Source: a virus. From it: DNA of 41,431 nucleotides. Location: positions 1-41,431 of the IMG/VR virus record IMGVR_UViG_3300010354_005064. One strand, written 5' to 3'. The notes under the pieces are model-generated. The model did no database searches. It had not been told where the DNA came from and saw only the letters and a program-made list of their open reading frames with translations. Shown here piece by piece: positions 30,140 to 41,107 of the stretch. How positions within the stretch are numbered: the stretch's first letter is position 1; each line of letters opens with the position of its first letter. Both the position numbers and the translations under genes were made by a program.

Positions 30140-31103
30140 ATTGGGCTCCTAACTTGTCAAACTTTCCGCATTGCTTACTGCATTCTTGTAGACCAGTTTT
30201 CCAAGCAGTTTCTATTTTATTAAAAAAATTACTTTCAAAAATTTCTTGCAAATTTTGATCACATAGATTTGGAAACTCTCCAATTTTATCCATATATTCT
30301 ATTCTGTTTTCTTGTCTCGGTAACTGCCAAGACAAATCCAACCAACAACAAGGACTAACATTACCGTCAGCACTTACATAAATCTGTTTGTACTTTTGTG
30401 CTTTACAATCTACTTGGCAGGTAAACTTAGAACTTACTTGGTTAGATAAAACTTTACTTTTTTCTGTAGGGTATAGAATATGTGTTGTTCGGCCAAGATC
30501 ATCTAAAACATTAAATTTTTCATTGATAAATCTTGTAGTATGTTTAACTTGAAAATTTTTAAAATTCATCCGACTAGCCATAAGCTGGCAAGCGTCTATT
30601 TGATTTTCATTGTGTTGGAATGCCAGCATGTGCCACTCTGCTTCGCCGCCTGCCTGAATAAATGCTGTAGCATTTTCAATAACCTTGTCAAAACTAGTAC
30701 CTATTCTATATAATAAGTGAGTGTCTTTTAAGCCATCGATACCAAAAACTACTCGAGTTTTTGTATAGGCTAATTGTTCCCACCATTGTAAACTTCTAGC
30801 ACTACCATTAGTGTGCATAGATAGTTTTATTGTAGGGTTTGTTTCTTTAATGTATTGCAGAATTGTAAGACAATCTTGTGCGATTATAGGATCGCCTAAA
30901 TTTCCGCACAGAAACAAACTATCTAGTTGTTTTAAAAATGTTATAGGAAACCATTCTTTAAAAGTTTTTAAATCAATTTCTGTTTCTGTTATTAAAGGAT
31001 TTATGGGGCCGCCGTTGATACGTCGTGGGCACATTGGACAACGTGCTTGACATTTGCTAGTAAGTTCTAGGTGAACATTTTTTATATCTTCTAATTCATA
31101 CAT
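30123..31103 (-). CDS. Radical SAM enzyme with SPASM-like tail, copy 2
   Basis: This 326-aa paralogue of the protein at 17057 has CQARCPMC (Cys18, 22, 25), LFLCGNLGDPI in the GGE position, HTNGSARSLQWWEQLA, FGIDGLKDTHLLYRIGT and a C-terminal cluster block CKAQKYKQIYVSADGNVSPCC plus CSKQCG. Copy 1 shares almost every one of these blocks. Both lack the canonical GGEP and have G-N-x-G-D-P, as some SPASM peptide-modifying enzymes do. Second gene of operon H. Confidence 0.88.
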   Translation of the reverse strand: MYELEDIKNVHLELTSKCQARCPMCPRRINGGPINPLITETEIDLKTFKEWFPITFLKQLDSLFLCGNLGDPIIAQDCLTILQYIKETNPTIKLSMHTNGSARSLQWWEQLAYTKTRVVFGIDGLKDTHLLYRIGTSFDKVIENATAFIQAGGEAEWHMLAFQHNENQIDACQLMASRMNFKNFQVKHTTRFINEKFNVLDDLGRTTHILYPTEKSKVLSNQVSSKFTCQVDCKAQKYKQIYVSADGNVSPCCWLDLSWQLPRQENRIEYMDKIGEFPNLCDQNLQEIFESNFFNKIETAWKTGLQECSKQCGKFDKLGAQFENRS

Positions 31104-32071
31104 TTTGGTATTTTACTATCAGCTGAACTTATACAGCTAGGTGTCGTACAAATTTTAGGTCTATCAAATAATTTAAAACCATCTGTTAATGTTCCTAATG
31201 ATTTATCGTGGCAACTATAACTACGTTTAACTTCATTTCCTCTTATTATAACACTTTGATATCCGCTATTACAAACCCAGCCTTTAAATTTATTGAATCC
31301 AAACGCATTAAATCTTTCGGCTTGATCAAAAAGATATTCTCGGCCTTCATTATCATAAAGAGCTATTTGATATATATCTTCTCCGATGGCATGCTGGGGA
31401 AATCCTGTACGCATTAATGAAATCATTTCATCTGTATACCCGTCTACAATAAAACTAGCAGTAGAATCACTTTGTGGTTTAAGTGTTACGTTTATTCCTT
31501 GATTATGAAATCTTTGACACCTTTCATAATATTCCCAAAACTTTTCAGGAACCATTACTTGGTTAACTGTAACGAAAACACTATTATACATTAGCCTGTG
31601 TATTTTTTCTATAAAGTCTTTTTCTTTAGCAAATTCGGCATGGTAACTGGCAGTAATACTTTTTCTGGCAAACATAGATACAGCATTAGACCAACTGCGC
31701 CACCAATTTTCACTAGGACTTAAATTCGTAGTCATGTGAATACTTTGATAAGGTGTTTCTATTCCGTCATCTAGATGATGTGTTAATTCTAATAAGCCTT
31801 TATAAGCAGTAGGTTCGCCTCCACTAAAACTCCAGTGAAATTGATTAAATCCATTTAGTCTTGCCTGACGTTTAATTTCGTCAACGGTTGTTTTATACAA
31901 ATCTATATTTTGATAATCGGGTGTATCTGATCTAGCATACGGCCAGCAATAACTGCATTTGTAGTTACAAAAACGTCCAATTATCCAACTTACAGAAAAT
32001 AACGGACGATCAAGCATAGTGCGTTGCCCAAATTTTACAATATTTTGGAAAGGAATGTGTTCGAAGCTCAT
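31091..32071 (-). CDS. Radical SAM enzyme, A-type-like, copy 3
   Basis: This 326-aa protein has CNYKCSYC (Cys35, 39, 42), WSFSGGEPTAYKGL and TTNLSPSENWW. The segment ITASYHAEFAKEK follows, and then a C-terminal set WVCNSGYQSVIIRGN, YSCHDKSLGTLTDG and CTTPSCISSADSKIPKC. The last block has the Cys spaced differently from the other A-type proteins. It begins operon H: the ATG lies 6 nt after a TGTAAATA element, and the start codon itself overlaps the -35 of the divergent sigma70-type promoter for the tRNA-like RNA. Its last codons overlap the next gene by 13 nt. Confidence 0.86.
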   Translation of the reverse strand: MSFEHIPFQNIVKFGQRTMLDRPLFSVSWIIGRFCNYKCSYCWPYARSDTPDYQNIDLYKTTVDEIKRQARLNGFNQFHWSFSGGEPTAYKGLLELTHHLDDGIETPYQSIHMTTNLSPSENWWRSWSNAVSMFARKSITASYHAEFAKEKDFIEKIHRLMYNSVFVTVNQVMVPEKFWEYYERCQRFHNQGINVTLKPQSDSTASFIVDGYTDEMISLMRTGFPQHAIGEDIYQIALYDNEGREYLFDQAERFNAFGFNKFKGWVCNSGYQSVIIRGNEVKRSYSCHDKSLGTLTDGFKLFDRPKICTTPSCISSADSKIPKCMN

Positions 32072-32099
32072 TGACTATATTTACAAACGGCTATATAAT
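32071..32099 (+). promoter_or_regulatory. Sigma70-type promoter of the tRNA-like RNA
   Basis: TTGACT (32071-32076), a 17-nt spacer and a perfect TATAAT (32094-32099) are followed 7 nt later by base 32106, the first base of the tRNA acceptor stem. This position fits a start of transcription exactly at the RNA's 5' end. Confidence 0.82.
32078..32085 (-). promoter_or_regulatory. Late promoter element, leaderless operon H
   Basis: TGTAAATA on the minus strand ends 6 nt before the start codon at 32071. It lies wholly inside the spacer of the divergent sigma70-type promoter, so late transcription of operon H and early transcription of the tRNA-like gene should exclude each other at this site. Confidence 0.65.
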
Positions 32100-32105
32100 A
32101 TAATC

Positions 32106-32214
32106 GTAGACGTGAGTGGAATCTGGTATACCTCCCCCAAAGGCTTCGGCCTGCGGGGGGAACAGCCCAGCCAATATGGCGGCTTTGCAGGTTCGAATCC
32201 TGCCGTCTACACCA
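32106..32214 (+). tRNA. Unusual 109-nt tRNA-like RNA with encoded CCA
   Basis: The ends are those of a tRNA. The acceptor stem GTAGACG/CGTCTAC pairs perfectly over 7 bp and is followed by ACCA. The T arm GCAGG-TTCGAAT-CCTGC is perfect (32187-32203). A D-like arm GTGG...CCTC (one T-T mismatch) contains the conserved A and GG of the D loop. The middle is abnormal: CCCCC/GGGGG (32134-32138 and 32155-32159) encloses a 16-nt segment that folds again as AGGC-TTCG-GCCT, and a further arm AGCC..GCC-AATAT-GGC-GGCT follows, like a long variable arm. No 7-nt anticodon loop can be placed, so I cannot give an amino acid. It could be a type II tRNA with an enlarged anticodon arm, a decayed tRNA or a tRNA mimic. 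Confidence 0.6.
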
Positions 32215-32237: not shown

Positions 32238-32558
32238 ATGAAAAAGGCTCTTGCAATTGCACTGTCACTGTTAACCTTTAATGCTTCGGCTCAGATAGAA
32301 AAATCTGCTTACGAAATGTTTTCCATTAGGCAAAACATGATGACCAATACTTCAACTATTACAATTAGGTCTGTAGATAATGTTAGGGAAGCTTGTGAAG
32401 CAGAAAGTCGTAAACGAGGTAACGGTGGTTTTGGATTTGCTTTAAACGCCTGTGCCTTTTGGGAGGACAAGAAATGTACCATTATTGTTGGTCCTAGGGT
32501 TAATAACGATATCTTAGGCCATGAAGTTCGTCATTGCTTTCAAGGAAACTTCCATTGA
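32238..32558 (+). CDS. Exported small HExxH protein, 106 aa
   Basis: The protein starts MKKALAIALSLLTFNASAQ, a clear signal peptide with an A-S-A cleavage site, so the mature part (about 87 aa) should reach the periplasm. It ends with GHEVRHCFQGNFH, containing the zinc-binding motif His-Glu-x-x-His (HEVRH), plus three more Cys (EACEAES, NACAFWEDKKC). It may be a minimal metallopeptidase or a zinc protein. I start it at the ATG at 32238; the reading frame stays open upstream through the tRNA-like gene, but that part is not coding. Its stop overlaps the TTG start of the next gene. Confidence 0.75.
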   Translation: MKKALAIALSLLTFNASAQIEKSAYEMFSIRQNMMTNTSTITIRSVDNVREACEAESRKRGNGGFGFALNACAFWEDKKCTIIVGPRVNNDILGHEVRHCFQGNFH

Positions 32559-33145
32559 ACACTCCCATATCAAAAAGCCCGCAACGTAATACTTTTCAAA
32601 AAGAAAAGTATCTTGAGCGTCAAGCCGAAAAAGGCAAGACTCCGGAAAATGACGAAGACACCCGTCTTATGCTAGACTTCTACGAATCTTTTGATCTTAA
32701 AGAAGATGAAAGAGAAGCAGATCCTGAATGGCGTAAAAATAATCTTGAATGGGATTTACGTACTACAGATTGGATTCTTGAAAAAGTTCGTGCCGACGAA
32801 GCATATGCTCAAAACTTATATGCTGCAATGTGCAATAACGACTTTATCAAAAGAGAGATGTGGCCTCTACTAAAAGAACAAAAATGGTCATGCTCATGGC
32901 GTTATGCCGGCGGCATTATTGCTCACATGCGCCAAGAAGGTGATTACATTGATTGGTATTGCTCAGGTATTAGAGATATTGGTGTTTATGCCCCTGCTGA
33001 AGAAAACGAAGTGCTAACCAAAGAACAATTAGCTAGAAAAGCCATCTACGATCGATTTGTCAGTGAGTGCGTAGTCACGGAAGAAATCGAAAACGATTTA
33101 TACCGACTAGGTTGGATTGTTGTTAAATATAATGAACAAGAGTAA
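32555..33145 (+). CDS. Hypothetical phage protein, 196 aa
   Basis: This acidic, tryptophan-rich cytoplasmic protein has no recognised motif. It begins MNTPISKSPQRNTF; the middle contains WDLRTTDWILEKVRADEAYAQNLYAAMCNNDF and WSCSWRYAGGIIAHMR in separate blocks. The latter pattern (short helix, Cys-Ser-Trp-Arg) appears from memory in hypothetical proteins of T4-like marine phages. The TTG at 32555 overlaps the upstream TGA and has AAGGA at 32542-32546, 8 nt away, which decides the start. Confidence 0.75.
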   Translation: MNTPISKSPQRNTFQKEKYLERQAEKGKTPENDEDTRLMLDFYESFDLKEDEREADPEWRKNNLEWDLRTTDWILEKVRADEAYAQNLYAAMCNNDFIKREMWPLLKEQKWSCSWRYAGGIIAHMRQEGDYIDWYCSGIRDIGVYAPAEENEVLTKEQLARKAIYDRFVSECVVTEEIENDLYRLGWIVVKYNEQE

Positions 33146-33150
33146 TTATT

Positions 33151-33330
33151 ATGGAAAATGAAAAATACATTTTTACCGCAGAAGAAATCTTTGAGGATAT
33201 TCCAGGAGATCCTAATAATGTTATACTAAAATTTCCAGACGAGGTTCTTAAGGAAACTGGTTGGAAAGAAGGCGACGAACTTGATGTTACTATTGAAGAT
33301 GGAAAGATTGTAATTAAAAAACATGGCTAA
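33151..33330 (+). CDS. AbrB/MazE-type (SpoVT-AbrB) small protein
   Basis: This 59-aa protein contains the swapped-hairpin fold of the AbrB family: VILKFPDEVLKETGWKEGD (residues about 24-42) followed by ELDVTIEDGKIVIKK, which matches 'i.iP.evrk.lgwk.Gd.l.v...dg.ivi.k'. AbrB/MazE proteins bind DNA as dimers and act as regulators or as antitoxins. No toxin gene is adjacent, so a regulator is the simpler reading. The last 8 bases overlap the start of the IF-1 gene, which couples the two. Confidence 0.8.
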   Translation: MENEKYIFTAEEIFEDIPGDPNNVILKFPDEVLKETGWKEGDELDVTIEDGKIVIKKHG

Positions 33331-33541
33331 AGACGATATACTAGAACTCACAGGCACAGTAGAAGAAGTACTACCGGGTAATATGTTTAGATGCAAAGTA
33401 GACAATATGACAAATGTACTACTCTGTTATATGGGCGGCAGATTAAAGCAAAATAAGATTAGAATTATTTTGGGAGACGCAGTAAAAATTGAAGTTAGTC
33501 CTTACGACCTTACCAAAGGCAGGATAACATATAGGTTGTAA
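33323..33541 (+). CDS. infA: Translation initiation factor IF-1
   Basis: The 72-aa protein matches bacterial IF-1 over its whole length. It has the MAKDD start, LTGTVEEVLPGNMFRCKVDN, then the GGRLKQNKIRIILGDAVKIEVSPYDL block and KGRITYRL at the end. E. coli IF-1 has 72 aa and the same landmarks (GTV.E.LP..MFRV, IRIL.GD.V.VE.TPYDL.KGRI). It is an OB-fold protein that occupies the ribosomal A site during initiation. It is intact, so it could replace or supplement the host factor during infection. It follows the AbrB-type gene with an 8-nt overlap. IF-1 has been reported in some very large phages but is rare. Confidence 0.93.
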   Translation: MAKDDILELTGTVEEVLPGNMFRCKVDNMTNVLLCYMGGRLKQNKIRIILGDAVKIEVSPYDLTKGRITYRL

Positions 33542-33543
33542 TA

Positions 33544-34206
33544 ATGAACACTATACTCGAACGTGTTAATGATGTATGCAAAAGCGTTCGAGATGAGTGT
33601 TCAATGCCAACAACTTTTAAAAAACTTGTATCAACTACAAGGAAAACTTTTAGAAGGCATGACTTCGATTTATCTATAAGATCAAAAAAAGATAAATCTT
33701 TGCATAATAATTCATTTTATGTTAATGCGTTCTATGATCCAGAAGATGATAAAAATTTAGAAACTTCTATAGAAGTATTAATACATCACAGTTTCGAACC
33801 AAACGACTTGTTCGAAGAAGTTCAAATAACGGAATTTTTAATTCAAATATATGATGCAGTAGTGCATGAATTTAGGCATCAACAACAGAGTAGAAAAAGA
33901 AATTTTAAAACTTATAGCGACCACGCCCAAGAACCATTTTCAAAATATCTTGCAGATCCGGACGAACTAGATGCATATAGCGTCAGTATAGCTATAGAAT
34001 TACTTAGAGTTATGCCTGCTTCGAGAGCCAAAAAATTTATGACTAAGATGTCTATTTTAAGTAGAATGAAACAGGGGAATCAATTAGTTAGTCCAAATTT
34101 ACGTGCATATGTTAATCATTTTGAAAATAATAATCTATTAAAACGGTTAGCCAAAAAGGTCAATAAACACTTGAATTTACTTGACAGCAGCCAAATTTTC
34201 CGTTAA
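33544..34206 (+). CDS. HExxH metalloprotein, paralogue 1
   Basis: This 220-aa protein has the zinc motif VVHEFRHQQQSR (His108-Glu109-x-x-His112), then DPDELDAYSVSIAIELL about 35 residues later, whose acidic residues could be the third ligand. It shares this order with the protein at 40379 (LHEIIHTRQYRSR, then DTDEIGAFSFNIACEL), so the two are paralogues of a gluzincin-like phage family. No signal peptide, therefore cytoplasmic. A protease role is possible, but a substrate cannot be named. It ends just upstream of a sigma70-type promoter whose -35 lies inside its last codons. Confidence 0.72.
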   Translation: MNTILERVNDVCKSVRDECSMPTTFKKLVSTTRKTFRRHDFDLSIRSKKDKSLHNNSFYVNAFYDPEDDKNLETSIEVLIHHSFEPNDLFEEVQITEFLIQIYDAVVHEFRHQQQSRKRNFKTYSDHAQEPFSKYLADPDELDAYSVSIAIELLRVMPASRAKKFMTKMSILSRMKQGNQLVSPNLRAYVNHFENNNLLKRLAKKVNKHLNLLDSSQIFR

Positions 34207-39552: not shown

Positions 39553-39729
39553 ATGAGTGGTAGAGGATTTATAGCACAGCAGCCCGACGAAGTCTGTGAA
39601 ATGTGCGGTAAAGTAGACGAGTGTAGGCCATACGGCCCAAACGATGAAAACATCTGTTTTGACTGTGCGATGAAAGACGAAGAAACAACTAAGCGTAAAA
39701 TGGATGCTTACATTTTTGGAGAAGAATAA
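39553..39729 (+). CDS. Zinc-ribbon miniprotein, 58 aa
   Basis: This short protein contains two Cys pairs, VCEMCGK (Cys15, 18) and ICFDCAM (Cys35, 38), spaced as a treble-clef or ribbon-type zinc site. An acidic and basic tail follows ([13 protein letters not shown]). Such proteins bind nucleic acid or protein partners. The stop TAA shares its last base with the clpP ATG (TAATG), so the two are co-translated. This could be an accessory for ClpP, but only position supports that. Confidence 0.75.
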
Positions 39730-40319
39730 TGCCTAATTTAGTACCGATGGTTATCGAGCAAGAAGCTCGTGGAGAGCGTAGTTACGACATTTATAGTCGC
39801 CTGCTCAAAGATCGAATTGTTATGCTGGACACAGATGTTAACGAACATAGTGCTAGCCTTATCGTAGCACAGTTACTATTTTTGGAGAGTCAAGGAAATG
39901 AAGACATCAGCTTCTTTATCAACAGCCCAGGTGGAGTCGTTACTGCGGGAATGGCAATCTACGATACTATGCAGTTTATCAAACCCGATGTTAGCACCAT
40001 TGTTATGGGCCAGGCTTGCAGTATGGGCAGTCTCCTTGCCACAGCAGGAGCTCCGGGCAAGCGAAAAATGCTGCCAAACGCAAGACACATGATTCACCAG
40101 CCCTCGGGCGGTGCTCGCGGGCAAGCTACAGACATGCAGATCCAAGTCGAAGAGATCTTAAAAATGAAACGATCTTTAACTGAAATTTATGTCAAGCACA
40201 ATTCAAAGGGTAAAACTTTTGCCCAATTTAGCGTAGACATGGAACGTGACAAGTTTATGAGCGCACAAGAAGCCCTAGAATACGGGTTGATTGACGAAAT
40301 TGTAGAAAAACGCTCATAA
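39729..40319 (+). CDS. clpP: ClpP protease subunit
   Basis: At 196 aa it has the length of processed bacterial ClpP. The catalytic triad is complete: Ser98 in GQACSMGS, His123 in MIHQPSGG and Asp174 in MERDKFMSA. Other family marks are [19 protein letters not shown] at the N-terminus, the oxyanion-hole FINSPGG, and [10 protein letters not shown] near the end. ClpP forms a barrel of 14 subunits that degrades proteins delivered by an AAA+ unfoldase. No clpX or clpA is in view, so it would rely on a host unfoldase. The GC content is visibly higher than in its neighbours, which suggests a more recent gain from a bacterium. T4-like phages of cyanobacteria and others also carry clpP. Confidence 0.96.
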
Positions 40320-40378: not shown

Positions 40379-41107
40379 ATGGAACGCAAACCATTCAACT
40401 GGAGTCTTGTAGATCGTTATACTTTGTATAGTATGTTAAATTCTATGCAAAGTAAAGTAGTTGATCAAAGATTGCGTGTTGAACAGTTGCAGTCCTTAAT
40501 GAGTAAACACATTAAAAAGTTTTTACCGATAAAGGTAAGAATAGAAAGAGATCCCAAAAATGACAAGGGATACGTTTATGTAGGTGGTACATATTACAGT
40601 ATTCTTGATAAGGGCGGCAAATCTAAATATATCGAAATAATTTTTAGCTATAACTCAGAGCAAAAATGGCTAAAATTAAGTAGGCACAGATGGCAAAGAA
40701 TATGTCTATTATTTGCTGATACAATGCTTCACGAAATTATCCATACTAGACAATATCGTAGTAGATCCTTTAAAGCAATTCCAGGTTATCAAAGCTCTGC
40801 ATACTATGCTAGAGATAGAAAAGAACAAGAATACTACGGAGATACTGACGAAATTGGTGCTTTTAGTTTTAATATTGCCTGTGAACTAATGGATAAATTT
40901 GGTAAAAATGCCAGCGCAGCAGCCAAATATTTAGATTCAAATCTTTATATTAGAAATAAAAGAACTACATTTTACAAATATATGAAAACTTTTGATCATA
41001 ATCATAATCACCCTATTATCAAAAGAGTTAAAAAGAAAGCCCTTACATATTTTGTAAATGCTCAAATGGGCAAACCATTTAGGACATCAAACTATTTGAC
41101 CTATTGA
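40379..41107 (+). CDS. HExxH metalloprotein, paralogue 2
   Basis: This 242-aa protein has TMLHEIIHTRQYRSRSF (His118-Glu119-x-x-His122) and DTDEIGAFSFNIACELM about 40 residues later. Both blocks match the protein at 33544. Its N-terminal half (MERKPFNWSLVDRY, helices) differs more. It is transcribed late, while its paralogue lies among earlier-type genes. Because it is late, a role in virion assembly or maturation is possible. It is not recognisable as the T4 prohead protease, which is a serine enzyme. Confidence 0.75.
   Translation: MERKPFNWSLVDRYTLYSMLNSMQSKVVDQRLRVEQLQSLMSKHIKKFLPIKVRIERDPKNDKGYVYVGGTYYSILDKGGKSKYIEIIFSYNSEQKWLKLSRHRWQRICLLFADTMLHEIIHTRQYRSRSFKAIPGYQSSAYYARDRKEQEYYGDTDEIGAFSFNIACELMDKFGKNASAAAKYLDSNLYIRNKRTTFYKYMKTFDHNHNHPIIKRVKKKALTYFVNAQMGKPFRTSNYLTY

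Follow-up and report, generated by a model that had tools for sequence, protein, structure and literature searches.

An infA-like initiation factor IF-1 as a core gene of T4-related freshwater jumbo phages, with early and late promoter motifs upstream

Features of the locus

The whole stretch of DNA analyzed here (the window) is a linear viral fragment of 41,431 bases, and on its plus strand lies an intact open reading frame of 72 amino acids which is infA-like and encodes translation initiation factor IF-1. The translation of this frame (33323-33541) is MAKDDILELTGTVEEVLPGNMFRCKVDNMTNVLLCYMGGRLKQNKIRIILGDAVKIEVSPYDLTKGRITYRL. Genes were called as simple open reading frames. The features needed for the following sections are given below with coordinates, strand and description.

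31091..32071, minus strand: divergent radical-SAM-type gene, with a late promoter GTAAATA on the minus strand at 32078-32084
32071..32099, plus strand: near-consensus sigma70 promoter TTGACT-17-TATAAT, heading the IF-1 operon
32106..32214, plus strand: tRNA-like RNA with 3' CCA, first element of the IF-1 operon transcript
32238..32558, plus strand: small gene with a signal-peptide-like start, kept in the block
32534..33145, plus strand: conserved function-unassigned gene upstream of the MazE-like gene, in 75/80 loci; the ORF list gives a TTG start, which may not be the true one
33123..33129, plus strand: late-type box with sequence TTAAATA, 21 nt upstream of the ATG at 33151
33151..33330, plus strand: MazE/AbrB-like gene, 59 aa, overlapping the IF-1 start by 8 nt
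33323..33541, plus strand: infA-like IF-1, 72 aa, by translation, Pfam and structure matches
33544..34206, plus strand: conserved gene directly 3' of IF-1, in 73/80 loci
39729..40319, plus strand: ClpP, like IF-1 a strongly conserved member of the block

The product of 33544..34206 carries a VHEFRHQQ stretch and is metalloprotease-like by sequence reading, with no family match. The region 4045-32071 holds about 28 kb of divergent blocks of radical-SAM-type, 2OG-oxygenase-like, methyltransferase-like and similar genes, as read from translations alone.

The IF-1 protein

Two profile searches matched the protein to Pfam family PF01176 (eIF-1a/IF-1) with E-values of 1.2e-20 and 1.5e-19 and with 68.8-69.8 bits, the curated cut-off being 30.2 bits, and the match runs over positions 2-64 of 64, i.e. 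the whole domain. Sequence matches to solved IF-1 structures were found with E-values from 2.8e-21 to 3.8e-12. Since profile matches at or below 1.5e-19 lie far beyond chance, the identification is confirmed at the level of sequence homology, and the full-length 72-aa IF-1 proposed in the initial annotation is borne out by the intact frame, the whole-domain match and the structure matches. The AlphaFold model of the phage protein has a mean pLDDT of 55 and was too poor for use.

The gene is under purifying selection, with a median dN/dS of 0.064 over 325 pairs. The equivalents of E. coli R45, Y59, R65 and R69 are unchanged in 46/46 distinct phage IF-1 sequences, and the 30S-contact residues (equivalents of R69, the KGR arginine and R45) are thereby kept in all of them; R69 has been reported as essential for 30S binding (PMC4611024). 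The phage proteins have a one-residue insertion at residue 29, in the turn after DN, and the window copy ends in YRL, with an RL end in all but one of the 46 distinct copies. All 46 also share a group-specific block made of LCY at 34-36, LKQ at 41-43 and K45, which lies within and beside the flexible loop that joins strands 3 and 4, and the ribosome-facing loop reads GKLKQHKIRI in phage IF-1 vs GKMRKNYIRI in cellular IF-1. Because this loop is altered and one residue is inserted, the activity of phage IF-1 could differ from that of the cellular factor.

RNA chaperone and antiterminator side activities belong to E. coli IF1, and the phage protein is an OB-fold RNA binder by homology, so a role outside translation of this kind was also considered. 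The invariant 30S-contact residues and the translation genes kept as company speak against it, and we regard it as very improbable.

Relatives and conservation of the gene block

A single scan of IMG/VR gave 483 IF-1 relatives. Among the best 80 of these the IF-1 proteins are 79-88% identical and the contigs reach up to 353 kb, and about 75 of these 80 have the same gene order around IF-1: the radical-SAM gene on the minus strand, the genes at 32238 and 32534, the MazE/AbrB-like gene at 33151, IF-1, the genes at 33544, 34243 and 34935 and a metallophosphoesterase, with ClpP and the gene at 40379 further on. The initial annotation had placed IF-1 in an accessory region, which does not hold for a gene order common to so many relatives; IF-1 belongs to a T4-related freshwater jumbo-phage group as a core gene. 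Median identities in the block are 85% for IF-1, the value being inflated relative to the neighbours as loci were picked by IF-1 similarity, 89% for ClpP and 41-50% for many neighbours.

The group is large, and it is uncultured but widespread. A Gp23-type (T4-type) capsid protein is present in the relatives G007 and G008, and the G008 protein shares 65-70% identity with its counterparts in Phosso, PA5oct, GAP32 and jumbo phages related to them. No Gp23-type capsid gene was found in the window, which is tied to G007 by gene order.

The rarity of IF-1 in phages, also claimed initially, stands for isolates only, where a search of 50,697 phage records gave 36 matches (several of them looking like bacterial contigs), and it does not stand for IMG/VR with its hundreds of relatives. 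The 36 matches, which include those of Lak phages and Sinorhizobium phage Phosso, are less than 60% identical in all but one case, and where a copy spans the protein its identity to the window copy does not exceed about 51%. Many phage and plasmid matches were set aside as ordinary bacterial infA, e.g. in a ribosomal operon. Two records are likely mislabelled contigs: phage record CAKLQH020000005 (L142), with the chromosomal genes leuB and truA around infA, and plasmid record NZ_CP149737 (L144), with infA inside a ribosomal-protein operon. IF1 of huge phages has already been published (PMC7162821; PMC12363816), and the gene described here is a known kind of phage gene, in a clade with its own features.

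In the tree the phage IF-1 copies form one group with support 99/76, placed beside betaproteobacterial extra infA (98/87) on 73 columns, which are too few for trust. The phylogeny against candidate hosts that had been suggested for this gene gave a single phage clade and no host, and assignment of a host from it was rejected; the betaproteobacterial neighbour serves as no more than a lead. Among 84,980 cellular genomes, the two patterns used for scanning returned one relative (L085), 51% identical, which lies upstream of the S13-S11-S4-rpoA genes of a ribosomal-protein operon and has a long branch in the tree.

These data bear on the reading that IF-1 is a bacterial gene present as a passenger or by contamination. 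Certain IF-1-bearing phage records do resemble bacterial DNA (Acinetobacter phage MD-2021a is one). The conserved gene block, the single phage clade, the low dN/dS and the lone, distant cellular relative all argue against this reading, no cellular chromosome was found with the same block around a near-identical IF-1, and we consider it extremely improbable.

Promoters upstream of IF-1

A near-consensus sigma70 promoter with a 17-nt spacer is present at most 1.5 kb upstream of IF-1 in 80/80 best relatives. In the window this early promoter on the plus strand overlaps (32069-32099) the leaderless-type late promoter of the divergent radical-SAM gene on the minus strand. Both members of this pair are found in 45/81 loci, and the overlap suggests an early/late switch built into the locus, as judged from the motifs. 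In a second branch of the group (L071, L074, L075, L077, L081) a sigma70 promoter lies 185-268 nt upstream of IF-1, which is placed after a tRNA array (seen in L071, L074, L075 and L077), and no late box was found at IF-1 in this branch.

The motif NTAAATA occurs 1-5 nt (mostly 4-5 nt) before the ATG of the MazE/AbrB-like gene in 69/81 loci, and wherever the distance is 1 nt, another ATG follows at a distance of 4 nt. The near late box is seen in 48/56 non-identical upstream contexts of this gene and in 39/40 alignable copies, and as control it was found at 0/479 starts of nine other block genes and at 0/81 of the IF-1 starts themselves. The distal 40379 gene has a near late box in 16/37 cases. 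An earlier view of IF-1 as purely early, drawn from the sigma70 promoter, was dropped once a late box had been recognised ahead of the MazE-like gene.

Across the loci the MazE/AbrB-like gene and the start of IF-1 share 1, 4 or 8 nt, so the two genes are probably coupled in translation. Given this overlap and the near late box at the MazE-like start, IF-1 is predicted, for most of the lineage, to lie second on a leaderless late message. The late box of the window stands 21 nt before the ATG, outside the leaderless spacing, and a short leader is therefore predicted for the IF-1 unit of the window.

The tRNA-like RNA heading the operon

The tRNA-like RNA of the window has 26 pairs, with 100% of cells paired in 21 sequences and 15 pairs changed on both sides, and 0/500 shuffles were as good. 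It keeps the acceptor, T arm, CCA and class II variable arm, and has a hairpin of varying size instead of the anticodon arm. It was missed by ARAGORN and at Rfam gathering thresholds, with a weak tRNA-Sec match. The covariance-supported form is seen in the window, in L002-L080 and in G008 (L104:10031); a model built on it finds copies in G001, G003 and G008, the G008 copy being away from IF-1, and in PA5oct, GAP32, Phosso and T4 its matches are at ordinary tRNA score level. This tRNA mimic merits a study of its own.

Leaderless-type layout and its relation to IF-1

Freshwater relatives carry the T4-type box WTAAATA before the ATG at two favoured distances, 4-8 nt and about 16-30 nt. Boxes at 3-9 nt number 5 in the window (0.6 in shuffles), 19 in G003 (1.4), 26 in G008 (2.6), 11 in G001 (1.5), 14 in G007 (2.7), 11 in G002 (1.1) and 16 in G006 (0.9); the layout is weak in G005, with 1 such box (0.5). 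Starts with a near box almost never have a Shine-Dalgarno-like motif, which about half of all starts have. In the T4 late-promoter register a near box would put the transcription start at or next to the ATG, and the near-box messages probably begin at the start codon without a leader. The leaderless-type layout is real and is present in nearly all IF-1-bearing freshwater relatives examined, in agreement with the late promoter layout noticed initially. Phage AR9 was tried as a further leaderless example and rejected, with transcript leaders of 26-491 nt (PMC5312081).

The initial annotation had joined the two features by way of initiation-factor balance and had named a lack of co-occurrence across relatives as refuting the connection. 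At the wider scale co-occurrence fails both ways. Environmental records are fragments, and absences count for complete genomes only; in Pelagibacter phage HTVC008M, whose genome is complete, the layout is seen at 8/113 starts (shuffle 1.2) and IF-1 is absent, and Phosso has IF-1 and lacks the layout (2/424 starts vs 0.9 in shuffles). From these two patterns, neither feature needs the other. Several large genes of HTVC008M (L155, L327-L329) have the box 5 nt before the ATG. No IF-1 was found in the whole records of PA5oct, GAP32, Vibrio phage 2.275.O and XaC1, and the stretches of them that were read (for XaC1, 160 kb) lack the layout. In G017, an environmental relative, the layout is present and IF-1 was not found in a 186-kb fragment.

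One reading of the arrangement is that phage IF-1 specifically favours leaderless late messages and, being itself made from a leaderless message in most of the lineage, closes a late feed-forward loop. The layout exists in the group and IF-1 follows such a promoter in most loci with a clean control, and as stimulation of in vitro leaderless translation by IF1 and IF2 has been reported (PMC9031893), such a loop is possible in this lineage. It would not be a general requirement across phages: HTVC008M and Phosso each have one feature only, the window spacing is leadered, the second branch is without a late box, and only about 4-10 per 100 starts are of the leaderless type. We regard this reading as unlikely. 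The link between IF-1 and leaderless messages is best described as real as a genome arrangement in one lineage and unproven as a function, and the connection drawn initially is supported in part.

Translation genes in the relatives

A gene for bS21 was found in 6/6 relatives larger than 130 kb, and no IF-3 partner was found in 17 records. The tRNAs of G001, G002, G003, G006 and G008 cover all 20 amino acids, and each of these relatives also has a tmRNA; G007 has 19 tRNA amino-acid types and a tmRNA in the 320 kb examined. About 27-37 tRNA genes are clustered in G001 (L120), G003 (L094) and G008 (L102-L103), and the tmRNA of the same phages has its own tag peptide.

The large IF-1-bearing relatives have an initiator-type tRNA-Met with a 1:72 mismatch (C:A, C:T or A:A) and a CTCATAA loop (G001 L120:3271, G003 L094:18312, G008 L103:4155 and L071:125; also G002 and G006). 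In G001, G002, G003, G008, L071 and L075 AGU:GCU replaces GGG:CCC, with G006 similar, and this form is without two of the three conserved GC pairs; G007 has AGG:CCU and keeps two GC pairs. The 3GC pairs of the anticodon stem have been described as highly conserved selection features (PMC7949028). Initiator-like tRNAs are also present in the IF-1-lacking PA5oct, GAP32 and Vibrio phage 2.275.O, for which reason an IF-1-specific link to the phage initiator tRNA was rejected.

With this tRNA and the invariant phage-specific block in the loop beside h44, it may be proposed that phage IF-1, through its altered loop, hinders host initiation and tolerates phage conditions, such as an initiator-type tRNA without two GC pairs. 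The variant tRNAs of G001, G002, G003, G006, G008 and others fit such a filter, but the IF-1-lacking phages with similar tRNAs and the IF-1-positive G007 with its two pairs retained do not, and we consider it improbable.

Proposed role of the phage IF-1

The gene, its purifying selection, its conserved binding residues, both promoter motifs and the translation genes of the relatives are direct observations, and the reading we favour, as probable, is that of a working IF-1 which supplements or replaces host IF-1 within a phage translation kit under early and late transcription. The phage factor would bind to the host 30S subunit at its A site and would supplement or replace host IF-1 during infection, by which initiation capacity would stay with phage messages. 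It would act together with bS21, the tRNAs for 20 amino acids including the initiator-type tRNA, and tmRNA. Early synthesis would come by read-through from the sigma70 promoter, and late synthesis, in most of the lineage, from the late promoter of T4 type that immediately precedes the MazE-like gene overlapping IF-1, if timing and coupling are as the motifs suggest.

A more elaborate initiation module, in which a leaderless late message gives IF-1 and IF-1 gives more leaderless late translation, tuned with the 3GC-variant initiator-type tRNA, bS21 and the anticodon-less tRNA mimic heading the operon, may also be imagined; we hold it to be unlikely.

Why phages carry initiation factors at all is a question for which this group provides a clean natural design, as its IF-1 has a group-specific ribosome-facing loop and is preceded by a late promoter of the leaderless type, initiator-type tRNAs are encoded by the phages, and some relatives have just one of these features. 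With features so separable, whether a virus alters the messages on which the host ribosome starts becomes directly testable in a reconstituted system.

Comparison with known systems

The IF1 of huge phages (Al-Shayeb 2020, PMC7162821; Lak phages; Jug phages, PMC12363816) is likewise carried by very large phages and has been read as redirecting host translation; what sets the freshwater clade apart is the insertion of one residue, an h44-facing loop that differs and, for the majority of members, an adjacent late promoter. Bacterial IF-1 (E. coli infA and the extra infA of Cupriavidus and Ideonella) is alike in length, domain and key arginines, whereas every phage copy has Y, L, K, Q and K in place of E. 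coli H34, M39, R40, K41 and Y43. The phage bS21 that is expressed late (PMC9723584) is likewise a phage part for the initiating 30S subunit, and bS21 is also found in these relatives; that study deals with a ribosomal protein and makes no mention of initiation factors, while IF-1 is a dissociable factor. T4-type late promoters have a TATAAATA-like box, as in this group, but in T4 and GAP32 the late box lies nearly always at least 10 nt from the ATG, whereas in the freshwater group it lies at 4-8 nt.
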